Shown in pieces: positions 4,077-9,228 of a stretch of DNA of 41,916 nucleotides. Position numbers and translations under genes: made by a program. Source of the stretch: Pelagibacterales bacterium SAG-MED28. Its GTDB lineage: Bacteria; Pseudomonadota; Alphaproteobacteria; Pelagibacterales; Pelagibacteraceae. The first letter of the stretch is position 1. Each line of letters starts with the position of its first letter. The stretch spans positions 1-41,916 of the forward strand of contig JACWDY010000009.1 in the NCBI GenBank assembly GCA_014653835.1, in the 5' to 3' direction. Under the pieces are notes generated by a model, which was not told where the DNA came from, ran no database searches, and saw only the letters and a list, made by a program, of their open reading frames with translations.

Positions 4077-4090
4077 TTTGAATTAATTTA

Positions 4091-4118
4091 TTGAATCTCT
4101 GCTAAAGAGTTTTATATT
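4091..4118 (+). promoter_or_regulatory. Probable ssrA promoter
   Basis: TTGAAT (4091-4096) and TATATT (4113-4118) are separated by 16 bases, a good sigma-70 arrangement pointing at the tmRNA. A six-base stem hairpin (AGTTGG, four T, CCAACT at 4124-4139) follows at about the expected transcript 5' end. Confidence 0.5.
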
Positions 4119-4123
4119 AATAG

Positions 4124-4390
4124 AGTTGGTTTTCCAACTATGACGATAAACGAATTTCGTAATAAACATTACGGACGTGGGGGCAGTACCCACCACCTCC
4201 ACCATTTACAACTTATGGGGGTGAATTAGGATCGACGAGTGTCTAAAGGCTATTCTTTCGTACGAGATGGTTCCGACGTAACGGGCCAATTTACAAATGC
4301 TAACGAAAGTTACGCACTTGCAGCTTAATTAACTTTGTTAATTAGGTAACGGGGTCCGGGGCACCTGGCAACAGAACGCCCCTTTCCGAA
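4124..4390 (+). ncRNA. ssrA: tmRNA, circularly permuted two-piece form
   Basis: The gene has the alphaproteobacterial permuted order, with the acceptor piece first and the coding piece second. The acceptor piece ends CACCTCC-A-CCA (4194-4204). Its T stem is GTGGG (4177-4181) paired with CCCAC (4189-4193) around a GGCAGTA loop. After a 12-base intervening loop, the coding piece starts GGGGGTG (4217-4223), which pairs over seven positions with CACCTCC, and continues with AATTAGGATCGACG, the typical tmRNA 5' region. The resume codon is GCT at 4299 and the tag reads ANESYALAA followed by TAA at 4326-4328. A GGGGC...GCCCC stem (about 4358-4382) forms the 3' end. tmRNA rescues stalled ribosomes with SmpB and tags the product for proteolysis; the hydrophobic LAA end fits ClpXP recognition. 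The exact mature ends are estimated. The 3' end doubles as the recombination core described below. Confidence 0.93.
4354..4383 (+). repeat. Recombination core copy 1, within the tmRNA 3' end
   Basis: A 30-base sequence starting GTCCGGGGCACC and ending GAACGCCCCT lies at the 3' end of the tmRNA coding piece. It recurs without change at 5723-5752 and 6818-6847. In this copy the left flank is genuine tmRNA sequence and the right flank belongs to element 1, as expected for a left attachment junction. The GGGGC/GCCCC inverted ends form an RNA stem in tmRNA. Confidence 0.88.
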
Positions 4391-4435
4391 TAGAGATACA
4401 TAAGGCTTTGCAACACTATTTTTAAGAAACCAGTG

Positions 4436-4457
4436 TTCACACGTTGAGTACACGTAA
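4436..4457 (-). repeat. Left arm-type repeat pair of element 1
   Basis: Two adjacent 11-mers, read on the minus strand, are TTACGTGTACT (4447-4457) and CAACGTGTGAA (4436-4446). They share the ACGTGT motif with the right pair of the same element and lie 52 bases to the right of core copy 1. The tandem 11-bp period and fixed orientation resemble arm-type sites of tyrosine integrases. Confidence 0.6.
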
Positions 4458-4484
4458 TCCTGTTTAAAATTTTTGATAATTATT

Positions 4485-5612
4485 TTAGTTATTGCATTTT
4501 ACTTTCACAGTAAAATTTTTTGCAGATTTTGCTATAACAGACTTTTTAATTTCTTTTAAACTATTTGAGGTTTCATAATTAACATTATTAGCTTTTAAAT
4601 GATCAATAAGATATTTTGATTTAATTGCAAAATTAACATTTTCAGGCAAAGTTCCTGTATAATTAGCAACTGCTATTGCATTAAGTTTTGAGGTTACAAT
4701 TCCAGATAAATTTCCACTTTCATCAAGTAAAGGTCCCCCGCTATTACCAGATTGAACTGGTGCGGACATTTGCAGATATCTTTGATCATTTTTAATTCCA
4801 GATAAAGCACTTACATCTCCTGATGTCATGTGCATGTTATCTGCAAGTAAATCTGATAATGGAAAACCTAAGACAATTATGCTTTCTCCTAACTCATCAT
4901 CATTCACTTTTATTTTAACAAAAGATTTATTCTTCTCAGCTATTTTTAGTACTGCAATATCATTACTATAGTCGCTAGAATATACGACGGCTTTATTTTC
5001 TTTTTTGTTATGAACCACATTTATCGATTTGCACTTATCGATTACATGATTATTAGTAACGACGTATCCATTATCATTTATAAAGAATCCTGACCCGCTA
5101 CCTCCACGAACTCTTTCTTTTTTTTCATCGTAAGGCGGATAGGTACGTATCATTGCAACTTTACCTATTTGAGGTACAGCTGTTTCAATAATATTTTCTC
5201 CTGTCATTAAAAAAGTGGTTTCTACATCCATCCCTGGACCTGGAAGAGCTAAATTGAAAGTAACATACACACCAGAATAGACATTTGATGATGCGGTTTT
5301 ATTAATCTTTAATTTTACTACACCAGATTTAACCATTCTGCCTTTAATTACTACTCCCAAATATTCGTATTCTGGAAGAGTTCCTGTATTATTTTTTATC
5401 ACTGCAATAGTATAATTCCCATTTAACCACCTCCAAATACCCTCGACTTTTGAAAGTTTTTTATTTTTAAAATAATTATTTACAAAACTTTCTTTTGTGA
5501 AACCGTTAAGATTTAATGTATCTTGGTCAATTCTTGTTGTTGCGCATCCACCAGCATGTAATAGCATCACTCCTGCAACTAATAGTATTAGAGCTCTCTG
5601 ATAACGCTTCAT
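4485..5612 (-). CDS. Trypsin-like (S1C) serine protease, lipoprotein; cargo of element 1
   Basis: The C-terminal half is a chymotrypsin-fold protease with an intact triad. His is in VVTNNHVID (residue 189 from the chosen start), Asp in SNDIAVLKI (218) and Ser in QSGNSGGPLL (291). The N-terminus is a lipoprotein signal ending LLHAGGC (Cys 23). Between them lies a roughly 130-residue domain of unknown identity containing GIWRWLNGNYTIAVIKN. There is no PDZ domain, unlike DegP. An in-frame ATG at 5630 lies six codons upstream. The ATG at 5612 is preferred because the signal peptide then has normal length and because the upstream ATG falls within a block (ATGCTA) shared with the unrelated element-2 gene. 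It is the only gene of its element. It probably acts in the periplasm, anchored to a membrane; the substrate is unknown. Confidence 0.88.
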   Translation of the reverse strand: MKRYQRALILLVAGVMLLHAGGCATTRIDQDTLNLNGFTKESFVNNYFKNKKLSKVEGIWRWLNGNYTIAVIKNNTGTLPEYEYLGVVIKGRMVKSGVVKLKINKTASSNVYSGVYVTFNLALPGPGMDVETTFLMTGENIIETAVPQIGKVAMIRTYPPYDEKKERVRGGSGSGFFINDNGYVVTNNHVIDKCKSINVVHNKKENKAVVYSSDYSNDIAVLKIAEKNKSFVKIKVNDDELGESIIVLGFPLSDLLADNMHMTSGDVSALSGIKNDQRYLQMSAPVQSGNSGGPLLDESGNLSGIVTSKLNAIAVANYTGTLPENVNFAIKSKYLIDHLKANNVNYETSNSLKEIKKSVIAKSAKNFTVKVKCNN

Positions 5613-5625
5613 ATTTTTAAATCTT

Positions 5626-5631
5626 AGCATA
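5626..5631 (-). promoter_or_regulatory. Possible -10 box of the element 1 cargo gene
   Basis: The minus-strand sequence AAATTTTATGCTA lies directly between the arm repeats and the cargo start. A near-identical AAATTTATGCTA occupies the same place in element 2 although the two genes are unrelated. TATGCT is an acceptable -10 box, but no clear -35 box is seen. If it is the promoter, the arm repeats would lie over or beside its upstream part. Confidence 0.3.
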
Positions 5632-5635
5632 AAAT

Positions 5636-5657
5636 TTCACACGTAATCCACACGTAA
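5636..5657 (-). repeat. Right arm-type repeat pair of element 1
   Basis: Two adjacent minus-strand 11-mers, TTACGTGTGGA (5647-5657) and TTACGTGTGAA (5636-5646), differ at one base. They end 65 bases before core copy 2, exactly the distance seen in element 2. The TGTG half matches the left pair of the same element but not element 2. Confidence 0.65.
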
Positions 5658-5663
5658 TTTCTC

Positions 5664-5752
5664 TCAAAGTTTTAGATTTGATGCAATTGCAAATGGCTTA
5701 TAATAAGGAATAATGTTACAAAGTCCGGGGCACCTGGCAACAGAACGCCCCT
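5664..5752 (+). repeat. Element right-end repeat, 89 bp, including core copy 2
   Basis: These 89 bases match 6759-6847 with five mismatches, all in the first 59 bases; the 30-bp core (5723-5752) is identical. The block includes TATAATAAGGAATAATG just before the core, which contains a -10-like TATAAT (5699-5704) pointing out of the element across the core. The block ends element 1 and its core begins element 2. Confidence 0.85.
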
Positions 5753-5805
5753 TACAACTTTACAGTTTTTCTTAGTTATTAACGCTAATTTAAAAATTCA
5801 ACCTG

Positions 5806-5827
5806 ATGGGTCGTAATATACTCGTAA
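5806..5827 (-). repeat. Left arm-type repeat pair of element 2
   Basis: Adjacent minus-strand 11-mers TTACGAGTATA (5817-5827) and TTACGACCCAT (5806-5816) lie 53 bases after core copy 2, immediately beyond the cargo stop codon. The ACCC half recurs in the right pair of the same element. Confidence 0.55.
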
Positions 5828-5829
5828 TT

Positions 5830-6708
5830 TTAAAACTTTTTTTTATTAGTAGGAACTTTATTCCTCTGACTAAAATCGTGCATACTTAAATCTTTGTGAT
5901 CAAGACTTATATAGCCTATGTGGTTGCCCTCCCTTTCTTCACAGCCTATAAATATTCTGTAAACTTCATATCCATTTTTTACCAAAACATCTCCGTAAGA
6001 GTTACTGCCTAATTCAAACTTCCCTGCGTATTTATCTTTTGCGTAATTTTTATATGGCTGCATAACATTTCTACATTGAGTATATCCTAGATTTCTAGAG
6101 TTCAGTTTTAAATAGCCATCTATTTCGAAAATTTGTTTGGTTTCACGATGATAACGTATTAAATAAGTTCCAAATGACTCATGAGGTTTAGGTGGATAAA
6201 TAATCCTCTTTCTTACTTTAAATTTTTTGTCTCCAACCAATATAAACGACCCTAATTTATAATTATCTATTGTTTTACCTATTTGCACACCAAATAGTTC
6301 CTCTCCGAGCATATATTTGATCTTGTTAGGTGCTCTTATATATGTTTCTTTAAATTTAAATTTTTTTCCCTTAAAATTACCTTTTACTGTTTTTAATAAT
6401 TTACCTTCTTTCAGTTTGTAAGTCGCTTTTGCGTCTGTCTCAGTCCAGGGATATTTGAGTTCTGTGGCTATAAAATTTCCCTTGTAGCCTAAATTTGTTT
6501 TCTTAAATGAGCCCATTAATTTATCTTTGTGCTCTTTAAAGAACTTTGTACTAAATAGTAAATACAGATTGTAATTACCATTACTTTTTTTTATCTCATA
6601 AACGCTACTAGTTTTTTCGTTTACCCATTTACCTATTAAAGTATCATCAGCGTATAAATTACTAAATTTTAATAGACAAACTATGATAACTAACAAATTC
6701 TTTTTCAT
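5830..6708 (-). CDS. Exported protein of unknown function; cargo of element 2
   Basis: The family is not recognised. From the ATG at 6708 the protein has 292 residues with a clear signal peptide (MKKNLLVIIVCLLKFSNLYA, cleavage probably before DD). A short beta-rich domain follows, beginning LIGKWVNEKTSSVYEI, with many Tyr/Lys-alternating strands, and then a second domain containing two closely placed cysteines (YTQC, FIGC). The opening GxW...Y.I pattern recalls the domain that precedes the protease in element 1, but the similarity is too weak to assert homology. The ATG at 6726 is six codons upstream; the chosen ATG has GGAG just before it and starts the signal peptide cleanly. The product probably resides in the periplasm or is secreted. 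Confidence 0.75.
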   Translation of the reverse strand: MKKNLLVIIVCLLKFSNLYADDTLIGKWVNEKTSSVYEIKKSNGNYNLYLLFSTKFFKEHKDKLMGSFKKTNLGYKGNFIATELKYPWTETDAKATYKLKEGKLLKTVKGNFKGKKFKFKETYIRAPNKIKYMLGEELFGVQIGKTIDNYKLGSFILVGDKKFKVRKRIIYPPKPHESFGTYLIRYHRETKQIFEIDGYLKLNSRNLGYTQCRNVMQPYKNYAKDKYAGKFELGSNSYGDVLVKNGYEVYRIFIGCEEREGNHIGYISLDHKDLSMHDFSQRNKVPTNKKKF

Positions 6709-6721
6709 GCTCCACGATTCT

Positions 6722-6727
6722 AGCATA
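6722..6727 (-). promoter_or_regulatory. Possible -10 box of the element 2 cargo gene
   Basis: TATGCT in AAATTTATGCTAG sits between the right arm pair and the cargo start, at the place of the matching block in element 1. Conservation across two elements with unrelated cargo supports a regulatory role; no -35 box is evident. Confidence 0.3.
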
Positions 6728-6730
6728 AAT

Positions 6731-6752
6731 TTGGGTCGTAGCTAGGTCGTAA
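6731..6752 (-). repeat. Right arm-type repeat pair of element 2
   Basis: Adjacent minus-strand 11-mers TTACGACCTAG (6742-6752) and CTACGACCCAA (6731-6741) end 65 bases before core copy 3. They share the ACCC/ACCT half with the left pair of the same element and the TACG half with element 1. Confidence 0.62.
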
Positions 6753-6758
6753 TTTTCA

Positions 6759-6847
6759 TCAAAGTTTTAGATTTCAAACAATTGCGAATGGCGTATAATA
6801 AGGAATAATGTTACAAAGTCCGGGGCACCTGGCAACAGAACGCCCCT
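6759..6847 (+). repeat. Element right-end repeat, 89 bp, including core copy 3
   Basis: This is the second copy of the 89-bp block at 5664-5752 (five mismatches, core identical at 6818-6847). No arm-like repeats occur at 50-60 bases to its right, so this is the outer junction. The sequence to the right is probably the original flank of ssrA. Confidence 0.85.
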
Positions 6848-6894: not shown

Positions 6895-7533
6895 ATGAAT
6901 AAATTAAATTATAAATTAAAGATTATTGATGACTTTTTAAATCGAGATGATTTTAATGGGCTTTGTAATTTAGATAATATAAAAAATTTTGGAAAAGAAT
7001 TTAAAGTTCTTAATAATAAAATTGATAATGACGAAATTATTAGCTCGTCAATAGACGTAGAACTTTTAAAAACTATTCATAGAAATTATCACTCTAAGGC
7101 TTTAAATATTTTAAAAGAGTTATGTCCAGAAAAATTTGATCTTTATGATTATACAAATTTTTCAATTGTTATTACAAACAAAAATAGTAAATTTCCTATA
7201 CATGACGACACTCCAAATAAATTATTATCAGGGGTAATTTACTTACACCCAGAAAAGAATTCAGGCACATCTTTTTATAATGATCAGAAAGGATCAGATA
7301 AAACAGTTATTAAATGGAAGCCAAATAGAGCAGTTTTTTTTTCAAGGAAAGAAAAAGAAACATGGCACTCTTATGAGGGGGACGGAATGAATGATAGAAT
7401 AGCTTTAATATATAATCTGATGACAAATAGAATAAAAGATGTTTATAAAATTGAAAATAAAAGTTTTTTTTGGGGTAACATAAGATTTAAACTTAATCCG
7501 TATTTATTTAGATATTTTAAAAAATATATTTAA
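6895..7533 (+). CDS. 2-oxoglutarate/Fe(II)-dependent oxygenase-like protein
   Basis: The 212-residue protein has the features of the prolyl-4-hydroxylase-like 2OG-Fe(II) dioxygenase fold. A probable HxD iron motif lies in FPIHDDTPNK. GVIYLHPEKNSGTSFY follows, then a distal His in WHSYEG and an Arg in RIALIYNL that would bind 2-oxoglutarate. The substrate is not known. It starts a three-gene plus-strand set with two FkbM-type methyltransferases. That company suggests modification of a surface glycan or a small secreted molecule, which is inference only. It begins 47 bases after core copy 3, next to the recombination hotspot. No signal peptide is seen. Confidence 0.7.
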   Translation: MNKLNYKLKIIDDFLNRDDFNGLCNLDNIKNFGKEFKVLNNKIDNDEIISSSIDVELLKTIHRNYHSKALNILKELCPEKFDLYDYTNFSIVITNKNSKFPIHDDTPNKLLSGVIYLHPEKNSGTSFYNDQKGSDKTVIKWKPNRAVFFSRKEKETWHSYEGDGMNDRIALIYNLMTNRIKDVYKIENKSFFWGNIRFKLNPYLFRYFKKYI

Positions 7534-7542
7534 CCAGTTTTA

Positions 7543-8406
7543 ATGATAAAAAAAATATCACGCTTACTCTTTAAAATTTTAATTTTTTTTGATAAATTAA
7601 TTAAGATAATCACTAGACGAAGCTTGATAATTTGGTTTACTGATTTTTTAGAAGAAACATCTTACAAATCTCTTATAATTTTTGAAAAAAAAATAAATTT
7701 TTTTGTTCCTAACCAGCTCACAAATTGGAGAGTTGACACTTTTTTTTCTAAAGAGCCTGAGACTCTTGAATGGATAGATAGTTTTGAAGAAAAAGATAAT
7801 TTAATTTTTTGGGATATTGGAGCAAATATAGGTTTATACTCAATCTATAATAGTTTAAAAAATAAAAATTCTACTACTTTCGCTTTTGAGCCATCTAGCG
7901 CCAACTTAAGAATATTAACAAGAAACATATCAATCAATAACTTAGAAAAAAAAATAAAAGTAATCCCTATACCTCTCACCAATAAAAAGAATGCTTTTCA
8001 AGAAATGAAAGAAAGTGATTTTTCTGAAGGAAGTGCTTTAAACTCATTTGGCGAAAAATATGATTTTGAAGGAGAAAAATTTAATCCTAAAATAAAGTAC
8101 TCTTTATTTGGTACAACAATAAATTATTTTTTAGAAAGTTCAATCTTGGAAATTCCTGACTATATCAAGATAGATGTTGACGGAATTGAACATTTAATAC
8201 TTGAGGGAGGTAATAATTTTCTAAATAATAAAAAAATAAAAAGCCTATCAGTGGAAATAAACGAAAATTTTTCAGAACATTACAAAAAAGTTTTAGATTT
8301 AATGAAAGAATACAATTTTAAAATTTTACATAAAAAACATAATGAAAAAAACTTCTCCAGTGAAAGTAAATTTAGCAAAACTTTTAATTATGTTTTTATT
8401 AGATAG
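7543..8406 (+). CDS. FkbM-family SAM-dependent methyltransferase
   Basis: The core of this 287-residue protein shows the FkbM Rossmann motifs: FWDIGANIGLYSIY (SAM-binding motif I), TFAFEPSSANLRIL (motif II acidic residue) and IKIDVDGIEHLILEGG (post II). These are the standard signature of Methyltransf_21. A basic, hydrophobic N-terminal stretch of about 75 residues precedes the domain. It lies nine bases after the oxygenase gene and 30 bases before a second FkbM gene. Family members O-methylate sugars or polyketides; the substrate here is unknown. Confidence 0.85.
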   Translation: MIKKISRLLFKILIFFDKLIKIITRRSLIIWFTDFLEETSYKSLIIFEKKINFFVPNQLTNWRVDTFFSKEPETLEWIDSFEEKDNLIFWDIGANIGLYSIYNSLKNKNSTTFAFEPSSANLRILTRNISINNLEKKIKVIPIPLTNKKNAFQEMKESDFSEGSALNSFGEKYDFEGEKFNPKIKYSLFGTTINYFLESSILEIPDYIKIDVDGIEHLILEGGNNFLNNKKIKSLSVEINENFSEHYKKVLDLMKEYNFKILHKKHNEKNFSSESKFSKTFNYVFIR

Positions 8407-8436
8407 GAAAATAACTTTTATAAAAGAAAATAAATA

Positions 8437-9228
8437 ATGATTAAAAAATTTGTTAAAAAAATATTGAGCTCTTTTGGCTACAAATTATCTAGAATAGAAT
8501 CAGTTGATTTACCTGATCTTGATGAAATAACAAAATCCTTAACTAAAAAACCTGATCCTATTATCTTTGATGTAGGAGCGAACAAAGGTCAATCTATAGA
8601 AAGGTATAAAAAAATGTTTAAATTTCCTACCATTCATTGTTTTGAACCTAATGCAGATGAAATAAGTAATTTAAAAAAAAAATTTCTAAATGATAATAAT
8701 TTGGTTTTAAATAATTTAGCAGTAGGTGAAAAAGAGGGTACACTTGAATTTAACATTAATGCAATAAGCGATCACTCAAGTTTTAGAAAATTGATCCCTA
8801 ACACTACTTGGATTAAAAAAAGAAGTAAGCAAGTAAATATTAGTAGTGAAAATTATACATCGAAAAAAATTAATACTGAAATAATCACCTTAGATGATTA
8901 TGTAAAAAAGAAAAATATTGAAAATATAGATATTCTAAAAATTGATACCCAGGGTTTTGAGGACAAGGTTTTGTTGGGAGCCCAAAAATTAATTAAGGAA
9001 AATAAGATAAAACTAATTCAATTAGAGTTAATATTTTCTGAAATTTATCAAGACTCTTTACAAATCTACGATATCGAAAAAAATTTAATTCCAAAAAACT
9101 TTAAACTTTTTAGCATTTCTAATGGTGGAAGTTTAGATTCACATTATGTATTTCAATCAGAATTAATTTATGTATCTTCTGATGTTTATGAAAACTTTAA
9201 AAAAAACTCACCTTACTTTAACAATTAA
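8437..9228 (+). CDS. FkbM-family SAM-dependent methyltransferase
   Basis: This second FkbM-type enzyme has 263 residues, with IIFDVGANKGQSIERYK (motif I), IHCFEPNADEISNL (motif II) and ILKIDTQGFEDKVLLGAQ (post II). It is only distantly similar to its upstream neighbour, so the pair is not a recent duplication. It ends the plus-strand set; its stop overlaps by two bases the stop of a convergent 26-residue ORF. A glycan or surface-polymer methylation role is likely from the family and context. Confidence 0.85.
   Translation: MIKKFVKKILSSFGYKLSRIESVDLPDLDEITKSLTKKPDPIIFDVGANKGQSIERYKKMFKFPTIHCFEPNADEISNLKKKFLNDNNLVLNNLAVGEKEGTLEFNINAISDHSSFRKLIPNTTWIKKRSKQVNISSENYTSKKINTEIITLDDYVKKKNIENIDILKIDTQGFEDKVLLGAQKLIKENKIKLIQLELIFSEIYQDSLQIYDIEKNLIPKNFKLFSISNGGSLDSHYVFQSELIYVSSDVYENFKKNSPYFNN

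Follow-up and report, generated by a model that had tools for sequence, protein, structure and literature searches.

Many tandem integrase-less cassettes at the ssrA 3' end of SAR11 bacteria carry putative arm sites whose words mostly match from left to right

Behind the permuted tmRNA gene ssrA, a genome of SAR11, a group very common in the ocean (Pelagibacterales bacterium SAG-MED28, assigned to SAR11 by its relatives; the 41.9-kb stretch of it analysed here is called the window), carries two integrase-less units of 1369 and 1095 bp in tandem, delimited by three identical 25-bp copies of the ssrA 3' end, the first of which lies inside ssrA. We propose that this is very probably an array of two non-autonomous site-specific cassettes that are moved in trans by various ssrA-specific integrases, with a short arm word acting as the key. 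The sequence evidence that points to this reading comprises the array itself, the matched words, the near-absence of recombinase genes from such units, near-identical units in diverged genomes, and two helper-cassette pairs. From it we infer that integrases bind the cassettes in trans, that specificity is of a lock-and-key kind, and that the words co-evolve with the integrase arm domain.

Results

Each window unit encodes a single main open reading frame and lacks an integrase gene of its own (Table 1). The element 1 protease belongs to a homology group of five, its relatives residing on four other units with other ends, and the element 2 protein matches neither Pfam nor PHROGs at the cut-offs applied. 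ARAGORN places the tmRNA at 4109-4419 with the tag ANESYALAA, and AACAGAACGCCCC, within the core, is the stretch common to the unit classes.

Table 1. Features of the ssrA array, in window coordinates
Feature	Coordinates	Strand	Basis
ssrA, permuted two-piece tmRNA gene; last bases are the attachment core	4087..4385	+	Rfam alpha_tmRNA, 220.9 bits, 4087-4385
Core copy 1 (GGGGCACCTGGCAACAGAACGCCCC), the ssrA 3' end	4358..4382	+	
Element 1 left putative arm site CAACGTGTGAA	4436..4446	-	
Element 1 left putative arm site TTACGTGTACT	4447..4457	-	
Element 1 cargo, trypsin-like protease, 381 aa	4485..5630	-	Pfam Trypsin_2, 3e-26
Element 1 right putative arm site TTACGTGTGAA	5636..5646	-	
Element 1 right putative arm site TTACGTGTGGA	5647..5657	-	
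Element 1 right-end backbone, arm to core; similar in other class A units	5658..5726	none	
Core copy 2	5727..5751	+	
Element 2 left putative arm site TTACGACCCAT	5806..5816	-	
Element 2 left putative arm site, deviating, TTACGAGTATA	5817..5827	-	Read from the printed sequence
Element 2 cargo, 298-aa protein	5830..6726	-	
Element 2 right putative arm site CTACGACCCAA	6731..6741	-	
Element 2 right putative arm site TTACGACCTAG	6742..6752	-	
Element 2 right-end backbone, arm to core	6753..6821	none	
Core copy 3, distal end of the array	6822..6846	+	

The seven 11-mers named in the initial annotation are all present on the reverse strand, and its count of three in four for element 2 is accurate, the eighth 11-mer (TTACGAGTATA, beside the one at 5806) lacking the ACC half. 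Agreement among the four copies, with a maximum of 21, is 20 in element 1 and 19 in element 2, and none of 1000 dinucleotide shuffles attains these values (highest 16 and 17, respectively). With up to two mismatches, both paired words occur at only these four places within the window, and they are absent from two other stretches of the same genome (19.0 and 10.0 kb). Scored with the right end of element 1, the left end of element 2 reaches 19 as well; a code read from the two window elements alone is therefore weak, and it is the larger set of units that decides.

Allowing two mismatches, the core is found in 64 of 90 relatives of the same genus and in none of 59 genomes outside it (65 of 150 counting the window's own genome). 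At least two cores are present at 49 of the 65 loci from those 64 core-bearing genomes, and the core rule yields no hits when the same 1.8 Mb are read backwards. Among 94 loci with at least two cores, a count that includes some genomes twice, the first core lies within a tmRNA gene at 79 and in none at 15, five of the latter having 3.7-7.6 kb of sequence preceding it. Over the related genomes we delimited 171 units, the window's two included, with a median length of 787 bp; 153 units fall into 133 near-full-length clusters. The main open reading frame runs antisense to ssrA in 99 of the 117 units of at least 450 bp. Of 270 unit open reading frames of 60 aa or more, two profiles mark one as recombinase-like, and by these profiles all other units lack a recombinase gene. 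No packaging names, as might point to a phage satellite (PICI or PICMI) packaged by a helper phage, appear among the 25 Pfam families listed, out of 62 that cover 113 of 221 cargo proteins. Between genomes whose flanks are 80.5-86.3% identical, units recur at 99.2% identity or more, and small armless units likewise recur in near-identical form, one of 272 bp at 99.2% identity or above; cross-contamination of single-cell assemblies could be a partial cause.

Co-variation was examined mainly in 110 units of 350 bp or longer, 40 of the 171 having been dropped beforehand as redundant; the first such test kept composite units. Arm pairs with a spacing of 11 or 12 bp are called at both ends in 39 of the 110, at the right end only in 29, at the left end only in 4 and at neither in 38, so that 71 lack a pair at one or both ends. 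The words vary among units, yet those at the two ends of one unit match (score 8.31; permuted 6.58 +/- 0.15; p <= 1e-4). The match is strong in the 21 non-redundant units that do not belong to class B and have a pair called at each end, where a unit's own score averages 8.90 against 6.57 +/- 0.23 permuted and its own partner ranks first in 18, ties included. In class B it is significant by Fisher's test (p = 3.3e-4, on 28 of 41 rows), and class B right ends mix words. The initial annotation's claim that the second half of the 11-mer matches within an element and differs between elements, together with the left-right co-variation it proposed to look for in a larger set, is borne out. Across 14 class A right ends the arms are 49-56% identical between units and the next 45 nt 81%, while class A words agree at 88% within a unit. 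Some units have unlike ends: L117 (3209-4294) carries different words at its two ends, two of the units with unlike words at L047 are explained by hidden or decayed cores, and for those at L036 and L040 no explanation was found. Two features go beyond what had been annotated, namely that the units lack an integrase, so that any partner would have to act in trans, and that the words are far more numerous than two.

Two recombinase-bearing elements behind ssrA have counterparts among the integrase-less cassettes of other genomes, with which they share a word (ACTATGTACC or GGCGTCA) and either one end or both. One, L045, encodes a 409-aa recombinase and carries ACTATGTACC three times at its left end and twice at its right; L120, a 662-bp unit with one 140-aa open reading frame, retains arms of the L045 type and a right end identical to that of L045 over 67 letters. 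In the other, L279, whose far end lies outside the contig, a 330-aa integrase sits directly behind ssrA with GGCGTCA twice, and the paired cassette L211 keeps a leader and arm of the L279 type and lacks the integrase. Both enzymes are tyrosine recombinases by homology. The L045 recombinase is unmatched by Pfam and PHROGs; it was identified by alignment with proteins whose own matches to Pfam integrase families are mostly weak, and through a profile that includes it and matches a 418-aa protein of G043, an integrase by PHROGs. Because Pfam misses this enzyme, a Pfam integrase search of 121 genomes cannot exclude further such genes. L045 additionally encodes a small resolvase.

Integrase-bearing SAR11 elements (3.1-8.4 kb) show the same arrangement with words of their own. 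An arm-like pair precedes the start codon in 15 of 18 related integrase genes, each reached by at most 9 of 1000 shuffles; the other three have no pair above chance, that of L315 being reached by 109 of 1000. Among 13 elements with a second attachment copy, the exact word occurs near it in 10 (0.19 expected; the word of G010 was set by hand to CGGCACA for this count), and in three no exact word is present at the far end. The idea that the 11-mers are arm sites of diverged integrases is supported by the left-right co-variation and by the arrangement these elements share; the two at ssrA also carry a word known from a cassette that lacks an integrase. Its further expectation, that words co-vary with the arm-binding domain, is not confirmed, as the association with the N-terminal domain is not significant (Mantel r = 0.16, p = 0.13; 16 integrases, one of them at ssrA). 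Among the related elements examined we found no integrase with the window's two words. The window's own genome, which is 89% complete, encodes one 319-aa and one 406-aa integrase; the latter was rejected as a partner, adjoining tRNA-Val with another pair and having no reported similarity to the L045 recombinase.

A phage origin was also considered and rejected. Eight viral contigs with the core own a tmRNA gene that ends in it (ARAGORN, 8 of 8), with no attachment site visible, and six further contigs retrieved with a wider pattern have, by eye, no ssrA or arm-like surroundings. Viral contigs contain no match to three backbone patterns, neither they nor phage records contain a relative of the L045 recombinase, and searching with 30 nt of the core turned up nothing beyond weak matches to phages that infect other hosts.

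Discussion

We propose that the window cassettes would have been inserted one after another, with a copy of the ssrA 3' end, the core, marking the border of each. The arm-type sites would be the 7-bp words that occur in each cassette as pairs with an 11-bp spacing, roughly 55 bp in from the left core and 70 bp in from the right one. Another element would provide a tyrosine integrase in trans, and this enzyme, bridging arm and core, would cut the cassette out or put it in. All cassettes have the core in common; the arm word differs by cassette lineage and mostly agrees where both ends carry one, which leads us to propose that the word decides which integrase moves a cassette.

Other readings account for parts of these data. 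The units may be deletion derivatives of full ssrA integrative elements that have kept the parent's arm word and have little present mobility of their own, as the retention of L279-type sequence in L211 and of L045-type ends in L120 would suggest. As to origin this overlaps the explanation we prefer. We consider it rather unlikely: near-identical units between diverged flanks point to recent movement of units that encode no integrase themselves, and 171 units stand against the two recombinase-bearing ones found at ssrA. It is quite improbable that the sites are dead, the left-right match reflecting shared descent and local duplication and the units spreading by homologous recombination between core copies or flanks. 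The absence of one or both pairs from many units, the decay of some cores (L047) and the recurrence of the armless 272-bp unit are consistent with such a history; however, class A words diverge faster than the backbone and are kept similar inside each unit, a pattern that requires selection or gene conversion, and the unit ends match those of recombinase-bearing elements. Similarly improbable in our view is that the 11-mers are operators for the cargo gene, bound by a cassette-specific regulator, with the right pair by the promoter of the reverse-strand gene. By eye, the right pair in most of the listed class A units does adjoin a TAGCATAA-like stretch, a plausible -10 element on the other strand, with the cargo start beyond, and the predominance of antisense main reading frames fits. 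Yet the same word also stands behind the gene's 3' end at the left end, the layout recurs in integrase-bearing elements with other genes, and the five homologous proteases are carried on different ends.

The cassette reading places the array beside several known systems. In lambda- and Tn916-type attachment sites, repeated arm sites lie on the flanks of the core at a distance of some 50-100 bp, and the integrases possess a short N-terminal domain ahead of the core-binding and catalytic parts. As in tyrosine-integrase elements, the window core is repeated at both ends from the target gene and putative arm-type repeats lie inside both ends, but an integrase gene of the element's own is present in L045 and L279 and absent from the window units; SAR11 arm words also vary among elements with one core, and all but one unit lack a recombinase gene by the profiles used. 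Integron cassettes mostly hold one gene each and form a tandem array at one site, with the recombinase coming from elsewhere. The SAR11 units are likewise mostly single-gene and tandem, with a recombinase that we propose is supplied from elsewhere, but they are delimited by the 3' end of a gene together with arm pairs, and the attC motif GTTRRRY is, by reading, absent from both strands of the core, so that they do not qualify as integron cassettes.

The closest parallels in layout include the Dehalococcoides ssrA islands, which according to the available text lie in tandem with a 20-bp repeat of the ssrA 3' end at their borders; 15 lack an integration module and are discussed as cis-mobilizable (PMC3146451). 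The SAR11 units are also tandem behind ssrA, bounded by its 3' end and integrase-less, and, judged from their sequences, they appear to fit the cis-mobilizable type in lacking an integration gene and keeping attachment sites. Those islands have the putative serine integrase DsiB, whereas the two recombinases found behind SAR11 ssrA are tyrosine recombinases by homology; the SAR11 units differ further in their median length of 787 bp, and the word 'arm' does not occur in the main text of that study (PMC3146451). Tycheposons, as described in the available part of their report, span 4-200 kbp with a tRNA at the border and a tyrosine recombinase, and, like additive flexible islands, bring cargo to tRNA genes with repeated gene ends in streamlined freshwater and marine hosts (PMC10872708). 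Integrase-bearing SAR11 elements resemble tycheposons so described; the window units, at 1.1-1.4 kb, at ssrA and without a recombinase, fall outside that description.

The available text of one survey reports that no genomic islands were detected in Pelagibacter ubique HTCC1062 (PMC3478194). SAR11 genomes are streamlined, and the ssrA cassette site would be a concrete route of gene gain. More tentatively, we suggest that SAR11 populations may draw on a common, open pool of cassettes, mostly of one gene each and with no resident integrase, which arm words divide into mobilization groups, so that one landing site answers to many keys. Words might change along with the ssrA-specific integrases as that family diversifies, and a cassette might switch helper by altering its arm words while the rest of its backbone stays constant. 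The same core and backbone with different words, together with two helper-cassette pairs, provide material for comparison, and matched words make the diversification of integrase arm specificity, and the isolation of mobile elements from one another, addressable by sequence and binding assays.

Results

Core copies and units at ssrA

The units at this locus are bounded by a core that forms the 3' terminus of a tmRNA gene of the permuted two-piece type, and an Rfam alpha_tmRNA match spans 4087-4385. The window's 995-kb assembly contains three core copies and no more (up to 3 mismatches). Among matches listed in named genomes, 79 of 80 fall in Pelagibacteraceae, Pelagibacterales or Pelagibacter, and the remaining one bears the label Rhodobiaceae; this range, together with the window's relatives, suggests that the window is SAR11. 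With up to 2 mismatches allowed, 64 of the 90 relatives in the same genus have the core, against 0 of the 59 outside it. At least two cores, and at most eight, occur in 49 of 65 loci drawn from those 64 genomes, while the same 1.8 Mb read backwards as a control gave zero matches. The first core lies inside an ARAGORN tmRNA in 79 of 94 loci with at least two cores (named and unnamed sets, overlapping in genomes). Some of the other 15 have little preceding sequence, yet at L135, L143, L149, L157 and L196 the first core is outside the gene despite 3.7-7.6 kb ahead of it; the units of L141 and L204 also belong to loci of this kind.

AACAGAACGCCCC is common to the unit classes, sometimes with one change, and the half to its left varies by class, as expected if strand exchange occurs near its left border; we infer such an exchange, with the element's own left half carried to the distal end. 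In the genome that carries the 409-aa recombinase described below, the ssrA 3' end reads GCTCT rather than GCCCC (L045 2017), as though the element had overwritten the last letters of ssrA. Eight viral contigs (L102-L109) carry their own permuted tmRNA gene, found by ARAGORN, that ends in the same core letters; on phage DNA, a gene of this kind could act as an attachment site.

Cutting between cores gave 171 distinct units, the window's two included, with a median of 787 bp; an earlier cut of 153 units fell into 133 clusters of near-full-length similarity, 124 with a single member. Exactly one ORF of at least 60 aa is present in 102 of the 171 and none in 13; of the 117 units that reach 450 bp, 99 have their main ORF antisense to ssrA. 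Two profiles made for this analysis mark one of 270 ORFs (at least 60 aa) as recombinase-like; other kinds of recombinase could escape them. Among 113 cargo proteins scanned, drawn from 167 clusters (221 proteins, each at least 90 aa), trypsin-like peptidase and methyltransferase are the most frequent Pfam names, five each, in a listing of 25 of 62 families. Four further units, with different ends, carry relatives of the element 1 protease. Eleven loci share an armless unit of 409-411 bp that encodes a 120-aa ORF. Downstream of the array (window 6895-9228) lie two FkbM methyltransferases on the + strand and an ORF whose 2OG-Fe(II) oxygenase match is weak, under the Pfam cut-off.

Positions of core copies, the deviating arm site and the armless unit
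Feature	Position	Description
Core copies	window 4358-4382; further copies at 5727 and 6822	
Deviating eighth 11-mer	window 5817-5827	TTACGAGTATA
Armless 272-bp unit	L049 2039-2311; L069 2170-2442; L090 3300-3572	ssrA strand, 71-aa ORF

Arm words tend to match between the two ends of a unit

The initial annotation had read eight 11-mers in the window's two units as an element-specific arm code, such as two diverged integrases would be expected to leave. All seven that it named are in place, the four-copy agreement is reproduced by 0 of 1000 dinucleotide-preserving end shuffles in either element, and the paired words (up to 2 mismatches) occur nowhere else in the window. The repeats stand, but two elements are slim evidence for a code: by this score, the left end of element 2 pairs as well with the right end of element 1 as with its own (19 vs 19).

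The larger set does show the left-right co-variation that such a code implies. Arm pairs, taken as 8-mers that recur at a spacing of 11 or 12 bp, were called at both ends by one rule. After a redundancy filter had removed 40 of the 171 units, 110 of at least 350 bp were left. Of these, 39 have a pair at each end and 38 at neither, 29 have one at the right end alone and 4 at the left end alone. The best 7-mer common to a unit's own ends scored a mean of 8.31 in the 39 units, against 6.58 +/- 0.15 with right ends permuted (maximum 7.21 in 10,000). A first version of the test, with composite units included, gave 7.97 against 6.84 +/- 0.15 (31 units), its low ranks being composite or one-sided units. 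Outside class B, 21 units scored 8.90 against 6.57 +/- 0.23; the own partner ranked first in 18 (ties counted), second in two and third in one. Class B combines a nearly constant left backbone with varied words (GATCACA, GGACTCA, GGGCACA and others) and mixed words at its right ends. Left and right words are associated there (table 10, 2, 2, 14; Fisher p = 3.3e-4), with the word list drawn up by eye and 28 of 41 rows used, 11 lacking two left words and two near-copies being removed while other related units were retained.

Class A, to which the window's units belong, separates words from backbone. In 14 right ends, hand-picked and aligned in one register (15 tried, one without the anchor; L040_3 fits poorly), between-unit identity is 49% and 56% in the arm words and 81% over the following 45 nt, and the two words of one unit are 88% identical. 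Arm words thus diverge faster than their surroundings and stay alike within a unit, the outcome to be expected from a matched binding protein; the alternative is gene conversion. Class A right ends (window 5658-5726 and 6753-6821; L043, L084, L099 and others) also carry TTGNNAATGGCNTATAATAAGG or a near form, promoter-like and directed towards the core, and TAGCATAA adjoining the arms resembles a -10 element serving the cargo gene on the opposite strand.

Candidate recombinase-bearing partners

Two cases place a cassette's word on a recombinase-bearing element at ssrA. Genome G047 has behind ssrA a 7.6-kb unit with a 409-aa recombinase-like gene, whose end adjoins the right arms, and the word ACTATGTACC three times left and twice right. 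The same word stands at both ends of a 662-bp cassette with one 140-aa ORF in another genome (L120), and over 132 bp the two right ends share 83% identity, with 67 consecutive identical letters among them. A second integrase family has members in 23 of 397 genomes of the order by profile search. One of them (L279) is located immediately behind ssrA and has GGCGTCA twice ahead of its start codon, on a contig that stops short of the element's far end; an integrase-less unit (L211) carries GGCGTCA once left and twice right, and its left end is 86% identical to that of L279 over 107 aligned bp, the integrase leader among them.

Elsewhere, many at tRNA genes, SAR11 elements of 3.1-8.4 kb (L260 7008-11181, L261 6518-11635, L303-L317) encode a 314-347-aa integrase with an arm pair ahead, and seem to form an autonomous mobile element family. 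ARAGORN found tRNA genes (Met, Lys, Arg, Leu) in 9 of 22 integrase loci scanned and tmRNA in one, with tRNA-Glu for G084 and tRNA-Met for G010. Eighteen elements of the second integrase family were analysed with their flanks, from 17 of the 23 profile-positive genomes plus G084, excluding matches in G034, G103, G620, G624, G713 and G734. An arm pair precedes the integrase start codon in 15 (reached by at most 9 of 1000 shuffles); the L315 pair was no better than chance, and none was called in L311 or L316. Of the 13 elements in which a pair was called and the attachment site has a second copy, 10 repeat the exact word, as set by hand, no more than 260 bp from the far end (0.19 expected from shuffles); it is missing there in L305, L307 and L314. 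By eye, many integrase-element words have C at the fourth and A at the seventh place, as do many cassette words.

The initial annotation's further expectation, that words co-vary with the integrase arm-binding domain, did not reach significance: among 16 integrases, with whole-domain identity a blunt measure and registers hand-set, word similarity against N-terminal identity gave r = 0.16, p = 0.13 (partial r = 0.11, p = 0.22), against r = 0.21, p = 0.02 for the remainder of the protein.

Discussion

Searches of titles and abstract openings in the openly licensed literature returned no paper on cassettes at the ssrA of SAR11 or on arm words that differ by element; among the nearest described systems are the ssrA islands of Dehalococcoides (PMC3146451) and the flexible islands of Methylophilaceae (PMC10872708).

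Units of 1536, 1335 and 1362 bp are 99.28%, 99.4% and 99.2% identical between genomes amid aligned flanks of 86.3%, 81.5% and 80.5%, respectively. Such near-identity amid diverged flanks suggests that integrase-less units moved recently by some route, barring cross-contamination of single-cell assemblies. The armless 272-bp unit, at least 99.2% identical across three genomes and amid flanks of 85.3%, indicates that arms are not required for every spread. The repeats that prompted the arm-code interpretation are real, and its main claim is supported; broadened, it would cover cassettes served in trans.
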